DNA of 64,000 nt, taken from positions 24,167-88,166 of the IMG/VR virus record IMGVR_UViG_3300024495_000023; one strand, written 5' to 3'. Positions within the stretch are counted from its first letter, which is position 1. Each line of letters starts with the position of its first letter. The DNA is from a virus. Shown in pieces: positions 11,245-19,810 of this stretch. The notes beneath the pieces were generated by a model. The model saw only the letters and a program-made list of their open reading frames with translations, was not told the DNA's origin and made no database searches. The position numbers and the translations under genes are program-made.

Positions 11245-13926
11245 TTATGCCATGTAAGGCATTTTAACTCCTTTTTGAACATGTGCTTTGTTTTGATCTA
11301 TATATAGTTCTTGTCTGGCTATTTCTAGAAGATTGGCCATATTAGTATTTAAACTAGAAATGAATTGTACCATCTCGATTTGATCTTTGCTATTAACTAT
11401 TCCTTCCAGCTGTTGAGGTGTAACTACAGCTTCTCTGCCATGTAGAATCGCTTTTGTACCTGCTCCAAATTCTTCAAACAGCTTGCCTGTAGCACCTAGA
11501 GATCCATACGCACGAGAAGCGGGCGGTGCTCCCGGAGCTGCTCGAGTCGATGCTGCTGGATTATTTGCTTTTGGTCCTTCACCTGGAAAAAATATTCTAG
11601 GATCAAACGTCCTTTCATTTTCTGGTTTTCCTCTAAATCCTTGTACTTGTACAGTATTAGGTGTTAGATAACTAAACCAAGACCCTGTTAACAGGTTGTT
11701 TGGTCCTATACCTATAGTCTGTCCAGCAGTTACTGGTTTTCCTCGTATAGCATCAAAAATAGCTTTACTTTTTTCTTTATCAAATCCCGAAATCCTTAGA
11801 GTTATACCTTCTCCGGAATTAGCTTTTTCATCCCATAATTCTACAATTTGTTTTTCGATGTCAGCTACAGTGATCAAACCATTAAATGGAGCACCAAATG
11901 GTTCATGACCTTTAGCGAATTCCCATCTTCTTGTGGAATTTTCTAATGGAACCGTAGCAGATCCAAACTCAGAAGCGCCGGGCACCACCAGTTCTCTAGT
12001 TTGATCTTGTGTAAGATATGTACCGGTCATCTTGCCACCAGCAGACGGAGCGACAAATTGTTGAGTATTAACACCAATAGTGTTAGCTATTGTCATAGTT
12101 TCTGATTCAGTTGATGCGTCTGGTGCTATCACAGAACCAGCATCTCTTTGTATTGTTGTAGCTCCTCCAGAAGAAGTCATGCCGCCTCCGGCTGCTGCTC
12201 TTCCTAACGCATTTTTCATTTGAGCTCTTCGTAAATTATCGTCATATTTTCCTAAAAATAAACTTACGACACTGTCTGGAGCTCCTTGGGCTACAAGAAA
12301 ATCAGATATAAGCCTTTTTATTTCTACATACATCAATCTTGCCCAGCCTTCGAGATGTACAAATATCTTGTTCCTGCCTTCTTCGCTAAACATATTATCA
12401 TATACAGCAGTCATAGCGGGCATAGCAACATCTTTGATCCATTTAGAAAGATCTTCACCTGCTTGTTTTAATAAAGCAGGTAGAGGTTTTAATGCTTCTC
12501 CCATACCTTTTAATACAGGTATCAATGTGTCAAAAAAGTTTTTCCTAGCATCTTTGAATGCTAAACTAAATGTATCTAGGATTTTTGTTATACCTTCGTA
12601 TTTGTTTTTTTTATTTCTACTGTCTTCTATAGCTTTCCTAAGTTCAGCATCAGTCATCTTGCTGATATCACCAAAACTAAGAAGATCTTGTAACATTTTA
12701 GTCATGCCAGGGCCTAATTGTCGTTGACCTTCAGCTGTGGCCAGTGTGGCCATAAAGAACGACCTGTTGTTTTTAAAATGCTGTAATCCTACTCGATACA
12801 ATTTAAAAGTTCTTTCAGATTCACCTTTGTTGTATTCTTCTTCGGTTACATTATGATCTCTAGCCTGTCTTAGATCTTCTTCTAGAACCTGTCTCATACC
12901 CTGTGCTAATCCCAATATTTGGAAAGCACCTTGCGTGACTGGTGTAGTGTTTGCCGCCTGTGCTTTGTGTAAGTCGGCACCTTGGTCTCCAAACAGAGCT
13001 ATCATCCTAGTCAGTCTAGTTCTCATCTTGCCTTGTTCTTGTGGATCTAATTTTGCCAATGATCTTTGATAGATCACATCTTGTTCAACTGCTGCTACTT
13101 TTTGAGCTAGAGATTTTCTGTCAACTCCTGACATAGATGCTAGCGCATCTAGGTTTTCTATATAACCAACAAACGCTTTGTTAAGATTAGCTGTCCTCTG
13201 TGTATTTTCTTGATTGCCCTGATTGGTCATTATCAACCATTTAGCAAACATATCTCCAGATTCTTCTTGATTTATTCCCAGCTGTAACAGTCTTTCTCTA
13301 GCACCACTAGTTCCATTATATAGATTTTCAAAACTCATAGATAGGCGTTCAGCGCCTGATCTAACATCTCCAGATAATAGAGATAACCCTTGAGCATTAG
13401 AAACTACCAGATTAGCAAATTCATCTAAATCCATCCTGGCATTAGCAGCAGCATGACGTAGAGCCAACGCACTATTACCAAAGTTAGCACCAACAGCAGA
13501 AGTCTTTTTAAGAGTCGAGTTCCAACCTTCTACTACCGCTGTGGTCATCACAAATATATCAAGGAAACCTCCAACTAGCCCGCCAACTAACGGAACTTTC
13601 TTGATAAAAGTATCGTTCATTACTCTGGCAAAATCACTAAAAGTATTAGTGTTTCTGTCCATAGCACCTTTGAACATGTCTACGCTTTTTTTGATAGCAT
13701 TAGCAGCTTTGCTGTCTAATTTTGATATAGAATCCGCTATTTCGCTTGAGCTTTTTTCGTAAGCTGCGGCAGCACCGGCAGTGCTTCCTCTGTTAGTTTC
13801 TCCACCTGAATTTTTGTCAAGTTTCTGTATAGCTTTAAGAAGTTCTTGTAAGCTGGCTTCAGAAACTGCGTTGTCTATAACGCCTCTGGTTCCTGATATG
13901 ATTATTTCTACATTGCTATTAGGCAT
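11245..13926 (-). CDS. Tape-measure-like virion protein with degenerate M23-like domain
   Basis: 893 residues. The N-terminus (VEIIISGTRGVIDNAVSEAS, LQELLKAIQKLDKN) and the C-terminus (GKLFEEFGAGTKAILHGREA, VVTPQQLEGIV) both match the next upstream gene, so the two are paralogues. The middle is long helix with hydrophobic stretches (VGGLVGGFLDIFVMTTAVVE), like tail tape-measure proteins. Residues about 670-750 (GHEPFGAPFNGLITV, KPVTAGQTIGIGPNN) follow the M23 endopeptidase pattern, but the catalytic HxH is replaced by a SWFSYL segment, so it is probably inactive. It overlaps its upstream partner by 8 bases. T4 gp29 is the functional analogue I would suggest. Confidence 0.7.
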   Translation of the reverse strand: MPNSNVEIIISGTRGVIDNAVSEASLQELLKAIQKLDKNSGGETNRGSTAGAAAAYEKSSSEIADSISKLDSKAANAIKKSVDMFKGAMDRNTNTFSDFARVMNDTFIKKVPLVGGLVGGFLDIFVMTTAVVEGWNSTLKKTSAVGANFGNSALALRHAAANARMDLDEFANLVVSNAQGLSLLSGDVRSGAERLSMSFENLYNGTSGARERLLQLGINQEESGDMFAKWLIMTNQGNQENTQRTANLNKAFVGYIENLDALASMSGVDRKSLAQKVAAVEQDVIYQRSLAKLDPQEQGKMRTRLTRMIALFGDQGADLHKAQAANTTPVTQGAFQILGLAQGMRQVLEEDLRQARDHNVTEEEYNKGESERTFKLYRVGLQHFKNNRSFFMATLATAEGQRQLGPGMTKMLQDLLSFGDISKMTDAELRKAIEDSRNKKNKYEGITKILDTFSLAFKDARKNFFDTLIPVLKGMGEALKPLPALLKQAGEDLSKWIKDVAMPAMTAVYDNMFSEEGRNKIFVHLEGWARLMYVEIKRLISDFLVAQGAPDSVVSLFLGKYDDNLRRAQMKNALGRAAAGGGMTSSGGATTIQRDAGSVIAPDASTESETMTIANTIGVNTQQFVAPSAGGKMTGTYLTQDQTRELVVPGASEFGSATVPLENSTRRWEFAKGHEPFGAPFNGLITVADIEKQIVELWDEKANSGEGITLRISGFDKEKSKAIFDAIRGKPVTAGQTIGIGPNNLLTGSWFSYLTPNTVQVQGFRGKPENERTFDPRIFFPGEGPKANNPAASTRAAPGAPPASRAYGSLGATGKLFEEFGAGTKAILHGREAVVTPQQLEGIVNSKDQIEMVQFISSLNTNMANLLEIARQELYIDQNKAHVQKGVKMPYMA

Positions 13927-16429
13927 AGATCATATTACCTGATTGATGTCTTAAAGTTTCTAGGTGAGATTTATTAATGTCTATTTTTTCTTTATAGATG
14001 CTGATAAGAGTGTTCATCTTAGAATTTAGATCATTGATCATTTCTCCTACATTAACCTTGCCGCCTGTTGAGATTATATCTTCCATCTGGCTAGGTGTGA
14101 TAACAGCTTCTCGTCCGTGTAGTTCGACAGGAGTTCCTGCTCCAAACTCTCCAAACAATTTTCCCATAGTACCTAAGGTACCAGTACTCATTCCTTTAAA
14201 TTGCCAATGCCATGGTTCGTATGGTTGTTGTAAAGGCCCTTCCCATCCAAATCTAGTAGCATTCCTTTTTAGCCAATCAAAAACTTTAGGATCACGTACA
14301 TTGATATCTGTTGCTAATCCCCAACCATGTTTAGAAAATCCTGGTCGAGCAGCCAGTGTGGGTTTTCTATTTTTAACGTCTACTTGTTCTGCGAATGTTC
14401 TATATGAATCAGTTACATTTAGATTGATACCTTCTCGACGAGCAGCATCAGCCATGGCTATAAAAGCTCTAGCCGCGCTTGGTTGTAATCTATGACGTCC
14501 TTGTCCTATGCTAGCTAATGCGCTGTCTGGTAGTCGACCGTTGCTGCCGTCGGTCATGTTTTCCTGAGGACCATAAGTATAACCTTGTGGAGCAGGTCCA
14601 GGTCCTCCGGGAATAGGAGCACCGCCGCCAGCGGCTGCTTCACGTGCTTCTCTTCTTTGTGTTTCTAATGCCGCAGCATAACCACGTCTTGCTGCGTCAG
14701 CTATCGGTGTTGCTGGTTTAGGAATAGCTGCTAGATCACGTTCTTTCTGTTTGAGTACTTCTTCTAATTCTTGTTTTAGTTGATTATCTGCTTCAGGACT
14801 TTCAAAGGCTTTCCTTATAGCATATCTTAGATAAGCAGTTATAGTGCTAAACCATGATTCGATCTTGACATTCCATCTTTTCCACCCATTAGCATCTGTA
14901 AGTTCTTCAAAAAATCCTACAGCATCGGGTAGATACTCACCTACCCATCGGCCTAGTGTCGTGCCCATTTCTTTCATCTTGTCAGCTACACCAGCTTTGA
15001 TCAATTCGCTACCTATACCTTCTAATATCGGCAATAGCACATCTATCACTTTTGTCTGGAAGTCGTGTGCGCTGAGTCCAAACGCATTTAATATCCTAGT
15101 TAATGGATCACCTTCTTTATTTTGATTTTCAAGCTGTAACAAGAATCCTTCTATCTCATCTACAGATTTCATGTTCGCAATTTTTAGAGTAGTCCTGTTT
15201 AATGCTTCCGTGGACTGCCCTATTTCTTTCATGCCAGGCGCACCACTGGCTATCATAGAATAAAGTGCGTCATTGGCTTTACCTAGTCTAGCAGATTGGA
15301 ATAGACTTTCGGCTCTGCTTCTTCTCATACGCTTGCCGTATTCTTCTTCATCTAGTCCTGATTTAGCTAGAGCTTGTCCTCGTCTTGCTTCTGCTACCAG
15401 TTGAGGATTTAGTGTCATTAACAATTGAGCAGCATCAGTCTGTGGTGCTACTCCTAGATACAGTGCTCTAAACAGTTCAGCTCCAGTTTCGCCATACATG
15501 CTTTGGAAATAGGTCATCTGTTGCATGATACGGTTTCTAGCTTCAGGAGCCAAGCTGTTTAATTTTAATTGGAAAGCTGCGTTTTGACTTTCTTTTTCAG
15601 CTTTTGCCTGTAGATCCTCTACGCTTTCTCCAGTCATCCTAGAAATCAACATGATGTTTTTCATGTAACTTTCAAAGGCTTGGGCTGCTGCTGGTCCTTG
15701 TATCCTATTGTCTCTCACACCTCGGTTGACCATGGTATACCAAGAGGTCATGTTGTCTGCTAGTTGGTCAACAGTTCTGCCCAAGTTAAGCATCCTTTCA
15801 CCAACACCGCCTGAACCTTTATAAACTTCTCGAGAAAAATCTGAAACTTCTCTCGCACCTTCAGTGACTCCTCGTCCTAGCATAGCAAAATCTTTGCTGC
15901 GTTTAGCTATTAATTGACTAAGTCCGTCCATGTCTAGGTAAAGACCGGCTGCTACTGATCTCATTTCCATGATGCTGTTGTTAAAATTAGCACCATATGA
16001 CGATGATTTTTTAAGATTATCGTTCCAACCTTCTAGTACTTTAACACCTTGGACAAACACATCTCCTAGAGCACCAAGTGTTTCTCCAACGAAAGGCAAA
16101 TTCTTGATCAGTCCATTATTCAGCGCCGCTGAATATTCACTCATCTTGTCGCTGCCGCTGGCTATCATGCCAGCGAGATTAGTAGTAGTTCCTGCTAAAG
16201 CACCTATGCCTTTAGCTAGTTTTTTACCCCATTCAGATTTGGCTTTATCAGTATTGTCTGCTCTGTTAGCAGCACCACCGCCTCCACCGCCACCAGAACT
16301 GCCGCCCATGGATTTGTTGATAGAATTGACCGATTTGATAATTTCCTGTAAGGTAGCTTCGCTGGCAGCGTTTTCAATAACGACACCGTCTAGTTCACCA
16401 CCCAGGATTTGTACTTTTTGTATGGCCAT
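13919..16429 (-). CDS. Tape-measure-like virion protein with M15 peptidase domain
   Basis: 836 residues from ATG 16429, which has an AGGAAAG site before it; a TTG at 16441 is less likely. The N-terminus (VQILGGELDGVVIENAASEA) and C-terminus (GKLFGEFGAGTPVELHGREA) match the 893-residue paralogue downstream. The central region is helical with a hydrophobic patch (NLPFVGETLGALGDVFVQGV). Residues about 640-745 form an M15 D-Ala-D-Ala carboxypeptidase/L,D-type peptidase domain: zinc ligands in SKHGWGLATD (His701, Asp708) and EPWHWQF (His741), with catalytic Glu738. This would open the cell wall during injection, a job done in T4 by the gp5 lysozyme. Tape-measure role is inferred; the peptidase motif is clear. 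Confidence 0.75.
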   Translation of the reverse strand: MAIQKVQILGGELDGVVIENAASEATLQEIIKSVNSINKSMGGSSGGGGGGGAANRADNTDKAKSEWGKKLAKGIGALAGTTTNLAGMIASGSDKMSEYSAALNNGLIKNLPFVGETLGALGDVFVQGVKVLEGWNDNLKKSSSYGANFNNSIMEMRSVAAGLYLDMDGLSQLIAKRSKDFAMLGRGVTEGAREVSDFSREVYKGSGGVGERMLNLGRTVDQLADNMTSWYTMVNRGVRDNRIQGPAAAQAFESYMKNIMLISRMTGESVEDLQAKAEKESQNAAFQLKLNSLAPEARNRIMQQMTYFQSMYGETGAELFRALYLGVAPQTDAAQLLMTLNPQLVAEARRGQALAKSGLDEEEYGKRMRRSRAESLFQSARLGKANDALYSMIASGAPGMKEIGQSTEALNRTTLKIANMKSVDEIEGFLLQLENQNKEGDPLTRILNAFGLSAHDFQTKVIDVLLPILEGIGSELIKAGVADKMKEMGTTLGRWVGEYLPDAVGFFEELTDANGWKRWNVKIESWFSTITAYLRYAIRKAFESPEADNQLKQELEEVLKQKERDLAAIPKPATPIADAARRGYAAALETQRREAREAAAGGGAPIPGGPGPAPQGYTYGPQENMTDGSNGRLPDSALASIGQGRHRLQPSAARAFIAMADAARREGINLNVTDSYRTFAEQVDVKNRKPTLAARPGFSKHGWGLATDINVRDPKVFDWLKRNATRFGWEGPLQQPYEPWHWQFKGMSTGTLGTMGKLFGEFGAGTPVELHGREAVITPSQMEDIISTGGKVNVGEMINDLNSKMNTLISIYKEKIDINKSHLETLRHQSGNMIYA

Positions 16430-16467
16430 CTTTCCTACCAATTATGAAAATGCCAGAAATCTACGCA

Positions 16468-16507: not shown

Positions 16508-17413
16508 ATGGCAGAATTTATCAACAACTTAAACCCAACATCTGCGCAGCCAGCACCTGCTGTGAAAACAGATAAAAATCCTCTAGCAGCATTTTTTCGA
16601 CAGCCCAAAATTTGGATTTCGCTGCCTAGCAAAGGAGAGTTTTACCCAGAAGGTGCTTTAGAAAAAACTATCAACAACGAGTATCCTGTGTTTGCTATGA
16701 CAGCTCGAGATGAACTGTTGTTTAAAACACCAGATGCGCTGATGAACGGTGCTGCTACTGTAGAAGTTATACGTAGCTGTGTACCTAACATCAAAGATGG
16801 TTGGGCAGTGCCTAGCTTAGATGTTGATGCTATCTTAGTAGCTATCCGTATCGCTACCTACGGCGAAGAAATGGATGTCACCGCAGGTTGTCCTAAATGC
16901 GAAACTGTAAATGATCTAGCTGTTGATCTAAGGAATGTGTTAGATAGTCTTAACAAAGTAAATTTCAATAAAACTGTCGAGATAGGCGATAGTATGTTGG
17001 TTCATCTACGTCCTATGGACTACAATCAATTGACCAAAGTCAGCTTAAAAGCATTTGAACACCAGCGTATATTTTCTATCATCAATGATGATCGTATCGA
17101 GGAACAGGAAAAAGTTAGGATGTTCCAAGAAAGTTTTGTCAAGCTCACTGATTTGACTATCGATTCTGCTGTTAATTGTATTAGTAAGATCGAAAGTACA
17201 GAAGGTAGCACAGATAATCCAGAGTTTATCAGAGAATTTTTAACCAACGCTGATAAATCTATATTCCAATCTATCACTGATGCTGTAAACAAAAGCAAAG
17301 AAAGCGGAACTATGAGCTCATTTAAAGCCAAATGTTCCAAATGCGAGCACGAATGGTCCGTAGATCTTAACATGGACAGCTCGGATTTTTTCGGTTCAGG
17401 CTTTCGTCGTTAA
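16508..17413 (+). CDS. 26: Baseplate hub / tail-assembly protein gp26-like
   Basis: 301 residues, T4 gp26 (T4 baseplate) family. The core KIWISLPSKGEFYPEGAL near residue 35 and FAMTARDELLFKTPDALMNG are typical, as is IRSCVPNIKDGW. Two Cys pairs, C128xxC131 (CPKC) and C276xxC279 (CSKC), probably form one zinc ribbon. T4 gp26 is shorter (208). An AGG site lies 8 bases before the ATG and a consensus late promoter 33 bases before. Sixteen residues after the last Cys the gene passes over a slippery heptamer and then stops, while the -1 frame stays open (see 17386-17471), so a longer fusion product is likely. Confidence 0.85.
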   Translation: MAEFINNLNPTSAQPAPAVKTDKNPLAAFFRQPKIWISLPSKGEFYPEGALEKTINNEYPVFAMTARDELLFKTPDALMNGAATVEVIRSCVPNIKDGWAVPSLDVDAILVAIRIATYGEEMDVTAGCPKCETVNDLAVDLRNVLDSLNKVNFNKTVEIGDSMLVHLRPMDYNQLTKVSLKAFEHQRIFSIINDDRIEEQEKVRMFQESFVKLTDLTIDSAVNCISKIESTEGSTDNPEFIREFLTNADKSIFQSITDAVNKSKESGTMSSFKAKCSKCEHEWSVDLNMDSSDFFGSGFRR

Positions 17414-17471
17414 CGATTGATGAAATCCTGGCTGAGACGAAAGCCCTTGACGAACAGGCCAAAGACGTTAA
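17386..17471 (+). promoter_or_regulatory. Programmed -1 ribosomal frameshift signal
   Basis: In the gp26 frame (GAT TTT TTC) the heptamer T TTT TTC at 17386-17392 fits the X XXY YYZ rule. After a 6-base spacer comes a perfect 10-bp stem GGCTTTCGTC/GACGAAAGCC (17399-17408 with 17436-17445) with a 27-base loop. Loop bases TTAACG (17410-17415) can pair with CGTTAA (17466-17471), giving a possible pseudoknot. The gp26 stop (17411) lies inside the loop. Slippage gives a fusion of 295 + 76 = 371 residues. Confidence 0.75.
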
Positions 17472-17622
17472 ACTTGAAGCTTTTAGATGTATATGGTACC
17501 TGCGTGGAGGAATGTCTTATACCGAAGCCATGAACCTCAGCTATGAGGAAAGAGAAATAATACAGAAGTTAGTAAAAGAAAATATAGAAATCGCTAAGAC
17601 TTCTGGACTGCCTTTCTTTTAA
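17392..17622 (+). CDS. -1 frame extension of gp26 (gp51-like / chaperone T-like)
   Basis: 76 codons after the slip, opening CGG and ending TAA at 17620-17622. The product has LTIDEILAETKALDEQAKDV, then CIWYLRGGMSYTEAMNLSYE and ends KTSGLPFF, the look of a real helical protein (the W-x-L-R-G-G-M-S-Y..A..L stretch resembles tail-assembly-chaperone C-terminal parts). There is no in-frame ATG, GTG or TTG before the internal ATG at mid-gene, and an in-frame TAA lies at 17368-17370, so normal initiation is not available short of ATT or CTG. Its stop overlaps the stop of the convergent gene. In T4 the separate gene 51 has a related baseplate-hub assembly role; that equivalence is inference. Confidence 0.7.
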   Translation, partial: RFRLSSLTIDEILAETKALDEQAKDVKLEAFRCIWYLRGGMSYTEAMNLSYEEREIIQKLVKENIEIAKTSGLPFF

Positions 17623-18872
17623 GCCTGTATTCGTTTTAACAGCGTGAATGCTTTTTGTGTAGTAGCAGGATCAGCTTTCATCAGATCGATCATAGCAGAT
17701 GCTAGCACTGCTTGATGTGTCCTACTTAACTGTCCACCGCTCTTGACCGTGCTCACAGCCATTTTTAATTGAGCTGGATTGACATTAGGCAATAGCTGTG
17801 TTAACGCATTGACGTTTAGCGAACCTTGTATACCGCTTTGTCCGCCACCAGAAGCATCGCCTGCTTGCTGTCCAGTTAGACCTCCAGCGACACCTTGTTT
17901 AAAACTGTCCCAAGCACTGCCACCGCCCTGGGCAGCACCTTGATTGCCTCCACCCATAGGACCTTGTGCGGCACCACCTTGGTCAACGATATTACCTGTG
18001 TTTGGATCTAGTCCATAGCCCATCTTGGCAGCATCATGAGCAGCTTGCATGAATGCTTTGTCTAGTGTAGCTTGTGGAAGAGCTTCTTCAGTGTACATGC
18101 TCATGTTTAGACCTTTAGAACGGATTTTAGCTGCTCCTGACTTAAAAGATCCGGCAGCATTAGCATTAACACCTTTTGCGGCCTGTATTCTTATCTTATC
18201 ATCAGCGGTCCGTGCCCATCCAGGTTTGTTCTGAGCGTCAGCTGCAGCCTGCTGTGTAGCCATAGCAGCTTTACCTGCGGCTTTACGTGCTTTTTTATCA
18301 ATTTTATTAGTGTTCTGTTGCGCTGGCGTTTGTGTTTGTGATGCGCTAGGTTTTGTTGTTGGTTGTGCTGCTGCTGTTGGTTGTGCTGTTGCTGTTGGTT
18401 GTGCTGTTGGTTGTGCTTGTGATGCGCTAGGTTGAGCTGTAGCTGTCGCATCGTCGTCTCCTGTTGGCTCAATCCTGTCTTGTGGCTGTTCAGGATTAGC
18501 TTTTAGCCTGTTGCCTAAAGAGCCAGCAGCGCCTTTCATCTTGCCCATGATGCCACCGCCCATAGGACCTTTCGGAGCTCTGTTACCAGTAGCAGAGTTA
18601 GCTTCTTTGTCTAAAACCATCTTAGCGCCATCAGATGGATAACCTTTGCTTTGTAGGAAACGTAGTACAGCATCAGCATCAGGTTCTAGCTTAGTAGCAC
18701 CAAGGAATCTGTTAAAATCTCTCATTAGAGCATTAGCGATAGCACCAGTATCTAGTTTACCAGCAGCTTTATCACTGCCAAATTTACTCATTATACCAAG
18801 TCCAGCTCGTTTGAGCATGCCTTGTGGTGCTTCTTTGACCTGTGATTCGATTAAGATATCATTGATTCTCAT
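17619..18872 (-). CDS. Ala/Gln/Pro/Thr-rich protein, unknown, late-expressed
   Basis: 417 residues. The N-terminus MRINDILIESQVKEAPQGML continues into a small folded region (AIANALMRDFNRFLGATKLE, DAVLRFLQSKGYPSDGAKMV). Residues about 140-215 are low-complexity Ala/Gln/Pro/Thr (AQPTATAQPTAAAQPTTK), then a basic Lys/Ala patch (KIDKKARKAAGKAAM). The end (LNVNALTQLLPNVNPAQLKM to MIDLMKADPATTQKAFTLL) looks like a compact helical domain. A late promoter octamer lies 28 bases upstream and an AGGA site before the ATG, so it is probably a virion or packaging-stage protein. No family recognised. Confidence 0.65.
   Translation of the reverse strand: MRINDILIESQVKEAPQGMLKRAGLGIMSKFGSDKAAGKLDTGAIANALMRDFNRFLGATKLEPDADAVLRFLQSKGYPSDGAKMVLDKEANSATGNRAPKGPMGGGIMGKMKGAAGSLGNRLKANPEQPQDRIEPTGDDDATATAQPSASQAQPTAQPTATAQPTAAAQPTTKPSASQTQTPAQQNTNKIDKKARKAAGKAAMATQQAAADAQNKPGWARTADDKIRIQAAKGVNANAAGSFKSGAAKIRSKGLNMSMYTEEALPQATLDKAFMQAAHDAAKMGYGLDPNTGNIVDQGGAAQGPMGGGNQGAAQGGGSAWDSFKQGVAGGLTGQQAGDASGGGQSGIQGSLNVNALTQLLPNVNPAQLKMAVSTVKSGGQLSRTHQAVLASAMIDLMKADPATTQKAFTLLKRIQA
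18336..18433 (-). repeat. Tandem low-complexity repeat with 17-base direct flanks
   Basis: A perfect 17-base direct repeat (18336-18352 and 18417-18433, 81 bases apart) brackets repeated GTTGGTTGTGCTG-type units. In protein this is PSASQ...PSASQ around AQPTA repeats, an in-frame 27-residue period. Slippage-type expansion is the likely cause. Confidence 0.75.
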
Positions 18873-19375: not shown

Positions 19376-19810
19376 TTATTTTGCCTTTTCGTGCTCTAAA
19401 AGACGCTGCCTAAGTATGTTTGAGCCGCCTACTCTGACGTTTATAATGCCATTATAATAGTCATCTGTTTCTAAAACTCGGCGTTCAAACTGCTCTCTTG
19501 CCTCTAAATAGCCCATTTCTGCCTTGCTTTTACAGTAATAAAGTATTTCTCTGGTGAAGTTTTCCGGACCTAATGCTTGGACGTCTGCGTTTAACCTGTC
19601 GCTAGAACCCCAGTAATCGCGCCAATCGCTTTCTACTGTGCTTCTGCGCTTGAGTTTTTTGCCTTTGAGAGGAGGTTTAGTACGTTTAAATTGTGCTAGT
19701 TTCTTGCCTATGTACTTCTGGCCGGTAGTAAGATTCGTGATGAGATAAACAAAGCCAATATAGCCTTCGGGTATTTCTTCTACGATTTGATTTTGATATG
19801 TCCAAAGCAC
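19376..19810 (-). CDS. GIY-YIG nuclease-family protein (Seg-like)
   Basis: 144 residues. GFVYLIT at 19-25 and KYIGKK at 32-37 make the GIY-YIG core, followed by a basic patch (KPPLKGKKLKRRSTVESDW), DWRDYWGSS and a Glu-rich helix YLEAREQFERRV holding the likely metal-binding Glu. This single-domain type is widespread in T4-like phages, often labelled Seg-like or hypothetical; no DNA-binding module typical of homing enzymes follows, so it may be a DNA-processing enzyme rather than a mobile element. Its ATG abuts the 76-residue gene (one base gap), downstream of gp46. Confidence 0.75.
   Translation of the reverse strand: MLWTYQNQIVEEIPEGYIGFVYLITNLTTGQKYIGKKLAQFKRTKPPLKGKKLKRRSTVESDWRDYWGSSDRLNADVQALGPENFTREILYYCKSKAEMGYLEAREQFERRVLETDDYYNGIINVRVGGSNILRQRLLEHEKAK

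Follow-up and report, generated by a model that had tools for sequence, protein, structure and literature searches.

The gp26 gene of this virus very probably undergoes programmed -1 frameshifting, and we judge from the sequence, with a probability of about 0.87, that this yields a tail assembly chaperone in a short and a long form. The gene lies at 16508-17413 on the + strand of the window, by which we mean the whole stretch of 64,000 nucleotides that was analyzed, and encodes 301 amino acids from ATG to TAA. Its product scores 62.5 bits against PF12322 T4_baseplate (curated cut-off 24.5) and matches the baseplate hub family phrog_150 (E 6e-23). The record holding the window (a virus record of 88,166 bases, possibly a fragment) contains one copy of the family as detected by phrog_150. 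Base-by-base inspection located a slippery heptamer, U UUU UUC, at 17386-17392, read as GAT TTT TTC in frame 0 and in the X XXY YYZ phase. The 6-nt spacer GGTTCA (17393-17398) separates it from the likely stimulatory stem, in which a 5' arm, GGCTTTCGTC (17399-17408), forms a perfect 10-bp helix with a 3' arm, GACGAAAGCC (17436-17445), across a 27-nt loop (17409-17435). The loop contains the frame-0 stop TAA (17411-17413) that ends the short form. The -1 frame is open from 17371, and the extension read in it (17392-17622, + strand) comprises 76 codons (17392-17619) and a TAA at 17620-17622, so that the predicted fusion has 295 + 76 = 371 residues. The extension stop overlaps the stop of a convergent gene for a 417-aa protein (17619-18872, - strand). 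The initial annotation had listed the heptamer, spacer, stem, loop, codon count, fusion length and overlapping stops, and all of them were borne out.

From this arrangement we infer the slippage itself, a ratio in favor of the short form and the chaperone role. Most ribosomes would end at 17411-17413 and produce the 301-aa short form. A minority would pause at the stem-loop 6 nt beyond U UUU UUC, the Phe-tRNAs in the P and A sites would re-pair one base back, from UUU UUC to UUU UUU, and the -1 frame would then be read through 17622 to give the 371-aa long form. If the pair works as lambda G/GT does, the tape measure protein would be coated by many short copies, and a few long copies would recruit the tube subunit via the extension.

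The sequence TTTTTTC is common by itself, occurring 13 times on the + strand and 18 times on the - strand of the window. As NNT TTT TTC it is used for one of the 31 Phe-Phe pairs in the 34 window ORFs, and this sole instance is the gp26 site. What decisively places the site beyond chance is its conservation in relatives. We aligned related gp26 loci, as the initial annotation had suggested, and found the heptamer and the open -1 frame to be kept in two sets of contigs. The heptamer is in frame, at the same place and followed by a homologous -1 extension in all 19 viral contigs of the window's clade (10 distinct 120-nt sequences), and is in frame at the same place in all 80 cyanophage-like contigs (75 distinct sequences); the latter are the best 80 of at least 598 relatives found with S-RIM8 gp26 as a query, and lean towards that query. 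The codon before TTT TTC in these 80 loci is AGT (45), TCT (29), GCT (4) or AAT (2). The 90 distinct ORFs of both sets that terminate in such a site hold 95 further Phe-Phe pairs, one of which is encoded by NNT TTT TTC. G follows the heptamer in all 10 distinct clade sequences and in 64 of the 75 distinct cyanophage-like sequences, so the extension usually begins with FFR; counted from the first base of the heptamer, the frame-0 stops in these sequences are at a distance of 10, 19 or 25 nt. The extension is also conserved as protein, and homologous extensions from 15 sequences could be aligned.

The arrangement extends to named phages. Among 23 that lack a gp51-type gene, picked by hand from hit lists for diversity and not at random, 14 have TTTTTTC (Phosso, Atu_ph07, PAC2, XaC1, 121Q, B23, S-RIM8, Aeromonas 65.2, SRB7757, phiW-14, Aeh1, Astolliot, OLIVR5 and BUCT608) and one, phiM19, has TTTTTTT, each with a -1 extension. 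Five others (immuto, Mel-JY01, LR756508, RM378 and SagM-GXN1) carry a long extension in the +1 frame, and in three (Cygsa01, PhaxI and Vibrio 1.255.O) the heptamer is missing and the -1 frame holds a second ORF. PF12322 identifies a single copy in 21 of the 23; immuto and Mel-JY01 escape this profile at E 0.01, and their proteins were recovered by phrog_150.

To assess the downstream structure, we scored the best uninterrupted stem starting 3-13 nt past the heptamer against 300 dinucleotide shuffles. The window stem (10 bp) starts 6 nt past the heptamer, within the distance of about 5-9 nt expected of a -1 frameshift signal, and was equaled by none of the 300 shuffles. Of the 15 loci compared from the window's clade, 12 had a stem equaled by at most 6 of 300 shuffles (nine at 0, one at 1 and two at 6), L013 and L015 being near-copies of each other. 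These stems vary in arm sequence and in loop length (11-51 nt), and start 3-6 nt past the heptamer. The nearest distinct relative, L005, has a 27-nt loop like that of the window, and comparison by eye of the two stems revealed one two-sided base-pair change. The remaining three loci of the clade were at chance level (L024, 37/300; L023, 63/300) or had no stem (L007). A positional control at 14 loci, which omitted L015, counted how many of 2000 random positions did as well: 4 for L020, 5 for the window and for L005, 10 for L021, 11 for L018, 12 for L019, 27 for L013, 39 for L022, 50 for L016, 60 for L012, 156 for L006, 321 for L024, 450 for L023 and 2000 for L007. Outside the clade, the stem was equaled by 9 of 300 shuffles in S-RIM8, 63 in SRB7757, 210 in B23 and 300 in Aeromonas 65.2; it is absent or no better than chance in the last three, and hence not universal. 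A fold of the window starting at the heptamer favored a different structure (z -1.32, equaled by 21 of 200 shuffles). When the heptamer was omitted, since the ribosome covers it, the 10-bp stem lay within the minimum-energy fold.

The initial annotation had also drawn a possible 6-bp pseudoknot. It can be drawn but finds no support, as the best pairing of the loop with the 40 nt downstream is another one, equaled by 160 of 500 shuffles in the window and by 427 of 500 in L005. Among the 11 loci compared in this way, L013 (2/500) and L022 (10/500) stood lowest, followed by L018 (43) and L019 (46), and the other seven, including the window and L005, were at 83/500 or more.

Taken together, the conserved heptamer (19/19, 80/80 and 14/23), its rarity elsewhere (1/95) and the stem in 12 of 15 loci make programmed -1 frameshifting very likely, as proposed in the initial annotation. 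The proposed pair of the tail-assembly-chaperone type is likewise supported at the level of sequence, where the 301-aa and 371-aa products correspond to a short form and a C-terminally extended long form.

We considered whether the extension could be a separate small protein with its own start, translationally coupled to gp26 and made either without a fusion or in addition to it. 121Q and cyanophages are annotated with separate second ORFs, a clade with a TAATG overlap and without a heptamer exists (Cygsa01 and Vibrio 1.255.O), and a start-like codon (ATG, GTG or TTG) stands no more than 12 codons from the heptamer at 61 of the 80 cyanophage-like loci, in 6 of the 14 named phages with TTTTTTC and in 4 of the 19 clade contigs. 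The window itself has an ATG at 17512-17514 (36 aa) directly after GGAGG, and a start-codon scan found another at 17530 (30 aa). The initial annotation, which saw no available start, was correct in that none serves the whole extension and overlooked these two internal codons, of which the frameshift model has no need. However, the 1-nt gap between GGAGG and the ATG at 17512 is too close for a usual ribosome site. This first ATG is codon 43 counting from the heptamer (L001-L004), and the codons ahead of it are conserved as protein in the 15-sequence alignment. In the relatives, start-like codons vary in position and kind; 15 of the 19 clade contigs (four of them with the window's own sequence) have none within 12 codons, and in PAC2 and SRB7757 the whole extension lacks ATG, GTG and TTG. 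All 99 contigs retain the exact heptamer, for which reinitiation has no need. A second ORF with its own start, named beforehand as evidence against frameshifting, is present in the split clade described below, and some of the relatives also have an early start-like codon next to the heptamer. The window shows neither. Hence, separate translation is possible in relatives with an early start-like codon but cannot account for the invariant heptamer, and we regard it as an unlikely explanation of the window.

Still less likely is slippage of RNA polymerase on the run of six T at the site, giving mixed mRNAs that encode both forms. Efficient slippage by bacterial polymerases usually requires longer runs. 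In each of the 10 distinct clade and 75 distinct cyanophage-like sequences the run stays at T6, followed by C and in the X XXY YYZ phase, and most of the window's clade has a stem positioned downstream, although transcriptional slippage on base runs is known (passages of PMC5009743). Another source of the same pattern would be a sequencing or assembly error, or a decayed gene, with a base missing and gp26 and its extension really in one frame. Single-base changes in T runs are a common type of error. Yet the four contigs L001-L004 are identical over 245 nt around the site, which argues against a one-base assembly error, and the same arrangement recurs in 10 distinct clade and 75 distinct cyanophage sequences. 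These observations refute the one-frame reading for practical purposes and leave it a negligible probability.

We thus retain programmed -1 frameshifting for the window. For the gp26/PF12322 family at large we lean, with some reserve, towards a single tree in which the long form is obtained by interchangeable routes: a -1 slip at U UUU UUC, which is likely ancestral; a +1 slip in a sister clade, at UUU YUW UGG CCU GA in its immuto-like part; split genes; and duplication in the T4 branch. The +1 route would be taken in a sister clade of gp26 homologues (L119-L198; L028:2980-3943, which is immuto; L029:2890-3970). A longer extension lies in the +1 frame in 79 of 79 readable loci found with immuto gp26 as a query, a set that represents the best 80 of at least 599 loci and leans towards the query; L141, which runs off its contig, was dropped. 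Ahead of CCTGA, which is itself part of the tally pattern, these 79 loci have TTT TTT TGG (40), TTT CTT TGG (34), TTT CTA TGG (4) or TTT CTT TAC (1), the codons at the gp26 end being listed separately. Distant members read TTT TTT TGG CCT AAG (Mel-JY01), TTT TTT TGG AAT (RM378) and TTT CTA TTC CCT (LR756508), and the motif is missing in SagM-GXN1. A +1 slip would re-pair well (UUU U, or UUU C / CUU U), whereas a -2 slip would not for the CUU form. The clade takes in phages of Flavobacterium, Microcystis, Rhodothermus and Streptococcus and many environmental contigs.

In the split clade (L111:2072-2982, L210:1001-1968 and L211:998-1890), which is Ackermannviridae-like, gp26 and a gp51-like piece are encoded by adjacent or TAATG-overlapping ORFs. 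The overlap is found in Cygsa01 and Vibrio 1.255.O, and no slippery heptamer is present in these two or in PhaxI.

We built a maximum-likelihood tree of 45 family proteins, in which gp51-type rows were cut to their first 205 aa and midpoint rooting was used for drawing only; the Klebsiella gp26-type row and RM378 form long branches. Four changes between the five labels suffice, the least possible number. The +1 group makes up one side of a branch (97/95), and so does the split group (95/88), which adjoins phiW-14 with its -1 site. The T4 26/51 proteins fall together (97/92), next to Aeh1 and Aeromonas 65.2, both of which have a -1 site; support for this placement (83/88) is lower than the star level of the tool. 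The T4 gp26-type rows alone do not make one clade. With the midpoint root, the -1 state, being the most widely spread, was likely that of the family's ancestor. If this history is true, the direction of the shift has switched within one homologous chaperone family, the duplication took place just after parting from the still-frameshifting Aeromonas 65.2 and Aeh1, and the essential, unexplained T4 gp51 becomes testable by swap experiments.

T4 itself argues for duplication. T4 gp26 (208 aa) consists of PF12322 alone. In T4 gp51 (249 aa), residues 1-201 match PF12322 (E 4e-52) and residues 147-246 match phrog_634, to which cyanophage gp51 belongs, with the extension in frame. By domain make-up, T4 gp26 is equivalent to the short form and T4 gp51 to the whole long form, which indicates a duplication and not a split. 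The initial annotation had recast T4 gp26/gp51 as a split pair; this is corrected here, since gp51 has its own PF12322 domain as well as the extension. Two PF12322 copies were present in 11 of 11 records searched that have a gp51-type gene (T4, 44RR, 50AhydR13PP, Klebsiella 21068 and seven IMG/VR records, one of which has a copy in two pieces and another a copy cut by the record ends). A single copy was found in the remaining matching records of three batches (12/15, 6/9 and 8/15), and two records of a 15-record batch had no PF12322 match at the cut-off used. The gp51-type copy in two pieces (G011:C1:125062-125666, in a T4-like IMG/VR record) reflects either an error or a broken gene.

How the window extension relates to the C terminus of gp51 is best seen through cyanophages, in which the ORF annotated as gp51 makes up the later portion of gp26's -1 extension. 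The cyanophage extension matches the C terminus of T4-type gp51 with a probability of 95.6% (E 1e-8). For the window extension, hhalign gave a probability of 12% (p 0.0026) against the gp51 C terminus and 3.5% (p 0.012) against the cyanophage extension, both in the expected register, and a window-type gp26 profile gave 56% against gp51-type proteins, both of which reach PF12322. No phrogs profile matched the window extension. Among 15 records searched, phrog_634 matched five (T4 and four cyanophage-type records) and none of the jumbo records, so the window extension cannot be assigned to phrog_634 by profile. The equivalence of the two regions, which the initial annotation expressed as "gp51-like", therefore rests mainly on position and on the cyanophage intermediates, the direct sequence likeness being weak (12%, p 0.0026).

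A BFVD search with an AlphaFold model of gp26 (pLDDT 78) gave 52 matches at E ≤0.001, among them T4-like baseplate hub assembly proteins (best E 1e-23). Searches of solved structures returned no fold match at E 0.001 for the models of the short form and of T4-type gp51 (the long form); in the latter model (pLDDT 83), the extension region ends in helices. We also observed matches of the gp26 model to uncharacterized proteins of ∼500-550 aa in Ralstonia phages RSF1 and RP12, Erwinia phage Special G and Aeromonas phage PS1 (BFVD, E 2e-7 to 7e-5). On the modeled fold, these may hold a gp26-like chaperone domain within a larger protein.

The divergent neighbor of gp26 (13919-16441, - strand, 840 aa) carries an M15/VanY D,D-peptidase domain near its C terminus (PF02557, E 5e-15). 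It also matches phrog_16823, tail length tape measure (E 2e-17), across the peptidase part only; on this peptidase-domain match it looks like a tape measure protein and a possible client of the chaperones. The immuto record lists, in order, sheath, tail completion protein, gp26 baseplate hub subunit, a small ORF inside the extension and tape measure. On the other side of the window's gp26, the convergent 417-aa protein has a repetitive middle rich in Q, T and A and a weak match to phrog_15511 (E 3e-4). A SegE-type GIY-YIG endonuclease is encoded at 19379-19810 on the - strand (PF19835, E 2e-35); phrog_447 labels this product NAD synthetase, a PHROG label that looks wrong.

The core idea is not new. 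In a 2022 study in Virology, Vladimirov, Gautam and Davidson reportedly identified genes 26 and 51 as the chaperones of T4-like phages and are said to have found frameshifting kept in several T4-like groups. According to passages of two later papers citing that study, some T4-like phages do without frameshifting and have a short chaperone gene and a longer, fused one (PRFect, PMC10885494), and short-form genes of T4-like phages contain a poly-T slippery site (PMC12846349). The initial annotation was not aware of a description for T4-type gp26, and one already existed for T4-like phages; its wider claim was right in direction, published in outline before and wrong in one detail, the pair being duplicated and not split. 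Passages of PMC3004832 list gp26 and gp51 as hub assembly chaperones and describe T4 gp51 as essential, of unknown function, needed for assembly and absent from the particle. Our searches of open-licence PMC literature met no mention of the stem-bearing site of the jumbo clade, the +1 clade or the split clade. Our analysis adds these three elements and the four-change tree, and carries the published idea to jumbo phages on strong sequence evidence, namely the invariant heptamer and the positioned stem. It also bears on annotation, as 121Q, Atu_ph07 and Phosso are annotated with the extension as a separate or shortened ORF. Aeh1 and Aeromonas 65.2 are the phages nearest T4 that still have a slippery site, and thus allow direct comparisons.

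The heptamer of lambda gpG/gpGT differs from U UUU UUC. In lambda-type systems the tape measure gene is the next one downstream, whereas in the window the likely tape measure gene is the divergent neighbor. The likeness of the window pair to gpG/gpGT is to the general class of frameshifted tail chaperones as outlined in passages of PMC5009743. As described in parts of the literature, the Vandenendeviridae and Andersonviridae resemble the window in that the -1 frame is open in every genome compared and an invariant poly-T motif ends the short form; they are another phage group, and their motif is GTTTTT, unlike the TTTTTTC of the window. The T4-like chaperones of Vladimirov et al. (2022), as cited in passages of later papers, and the window pair are alike in having a short and a long form.
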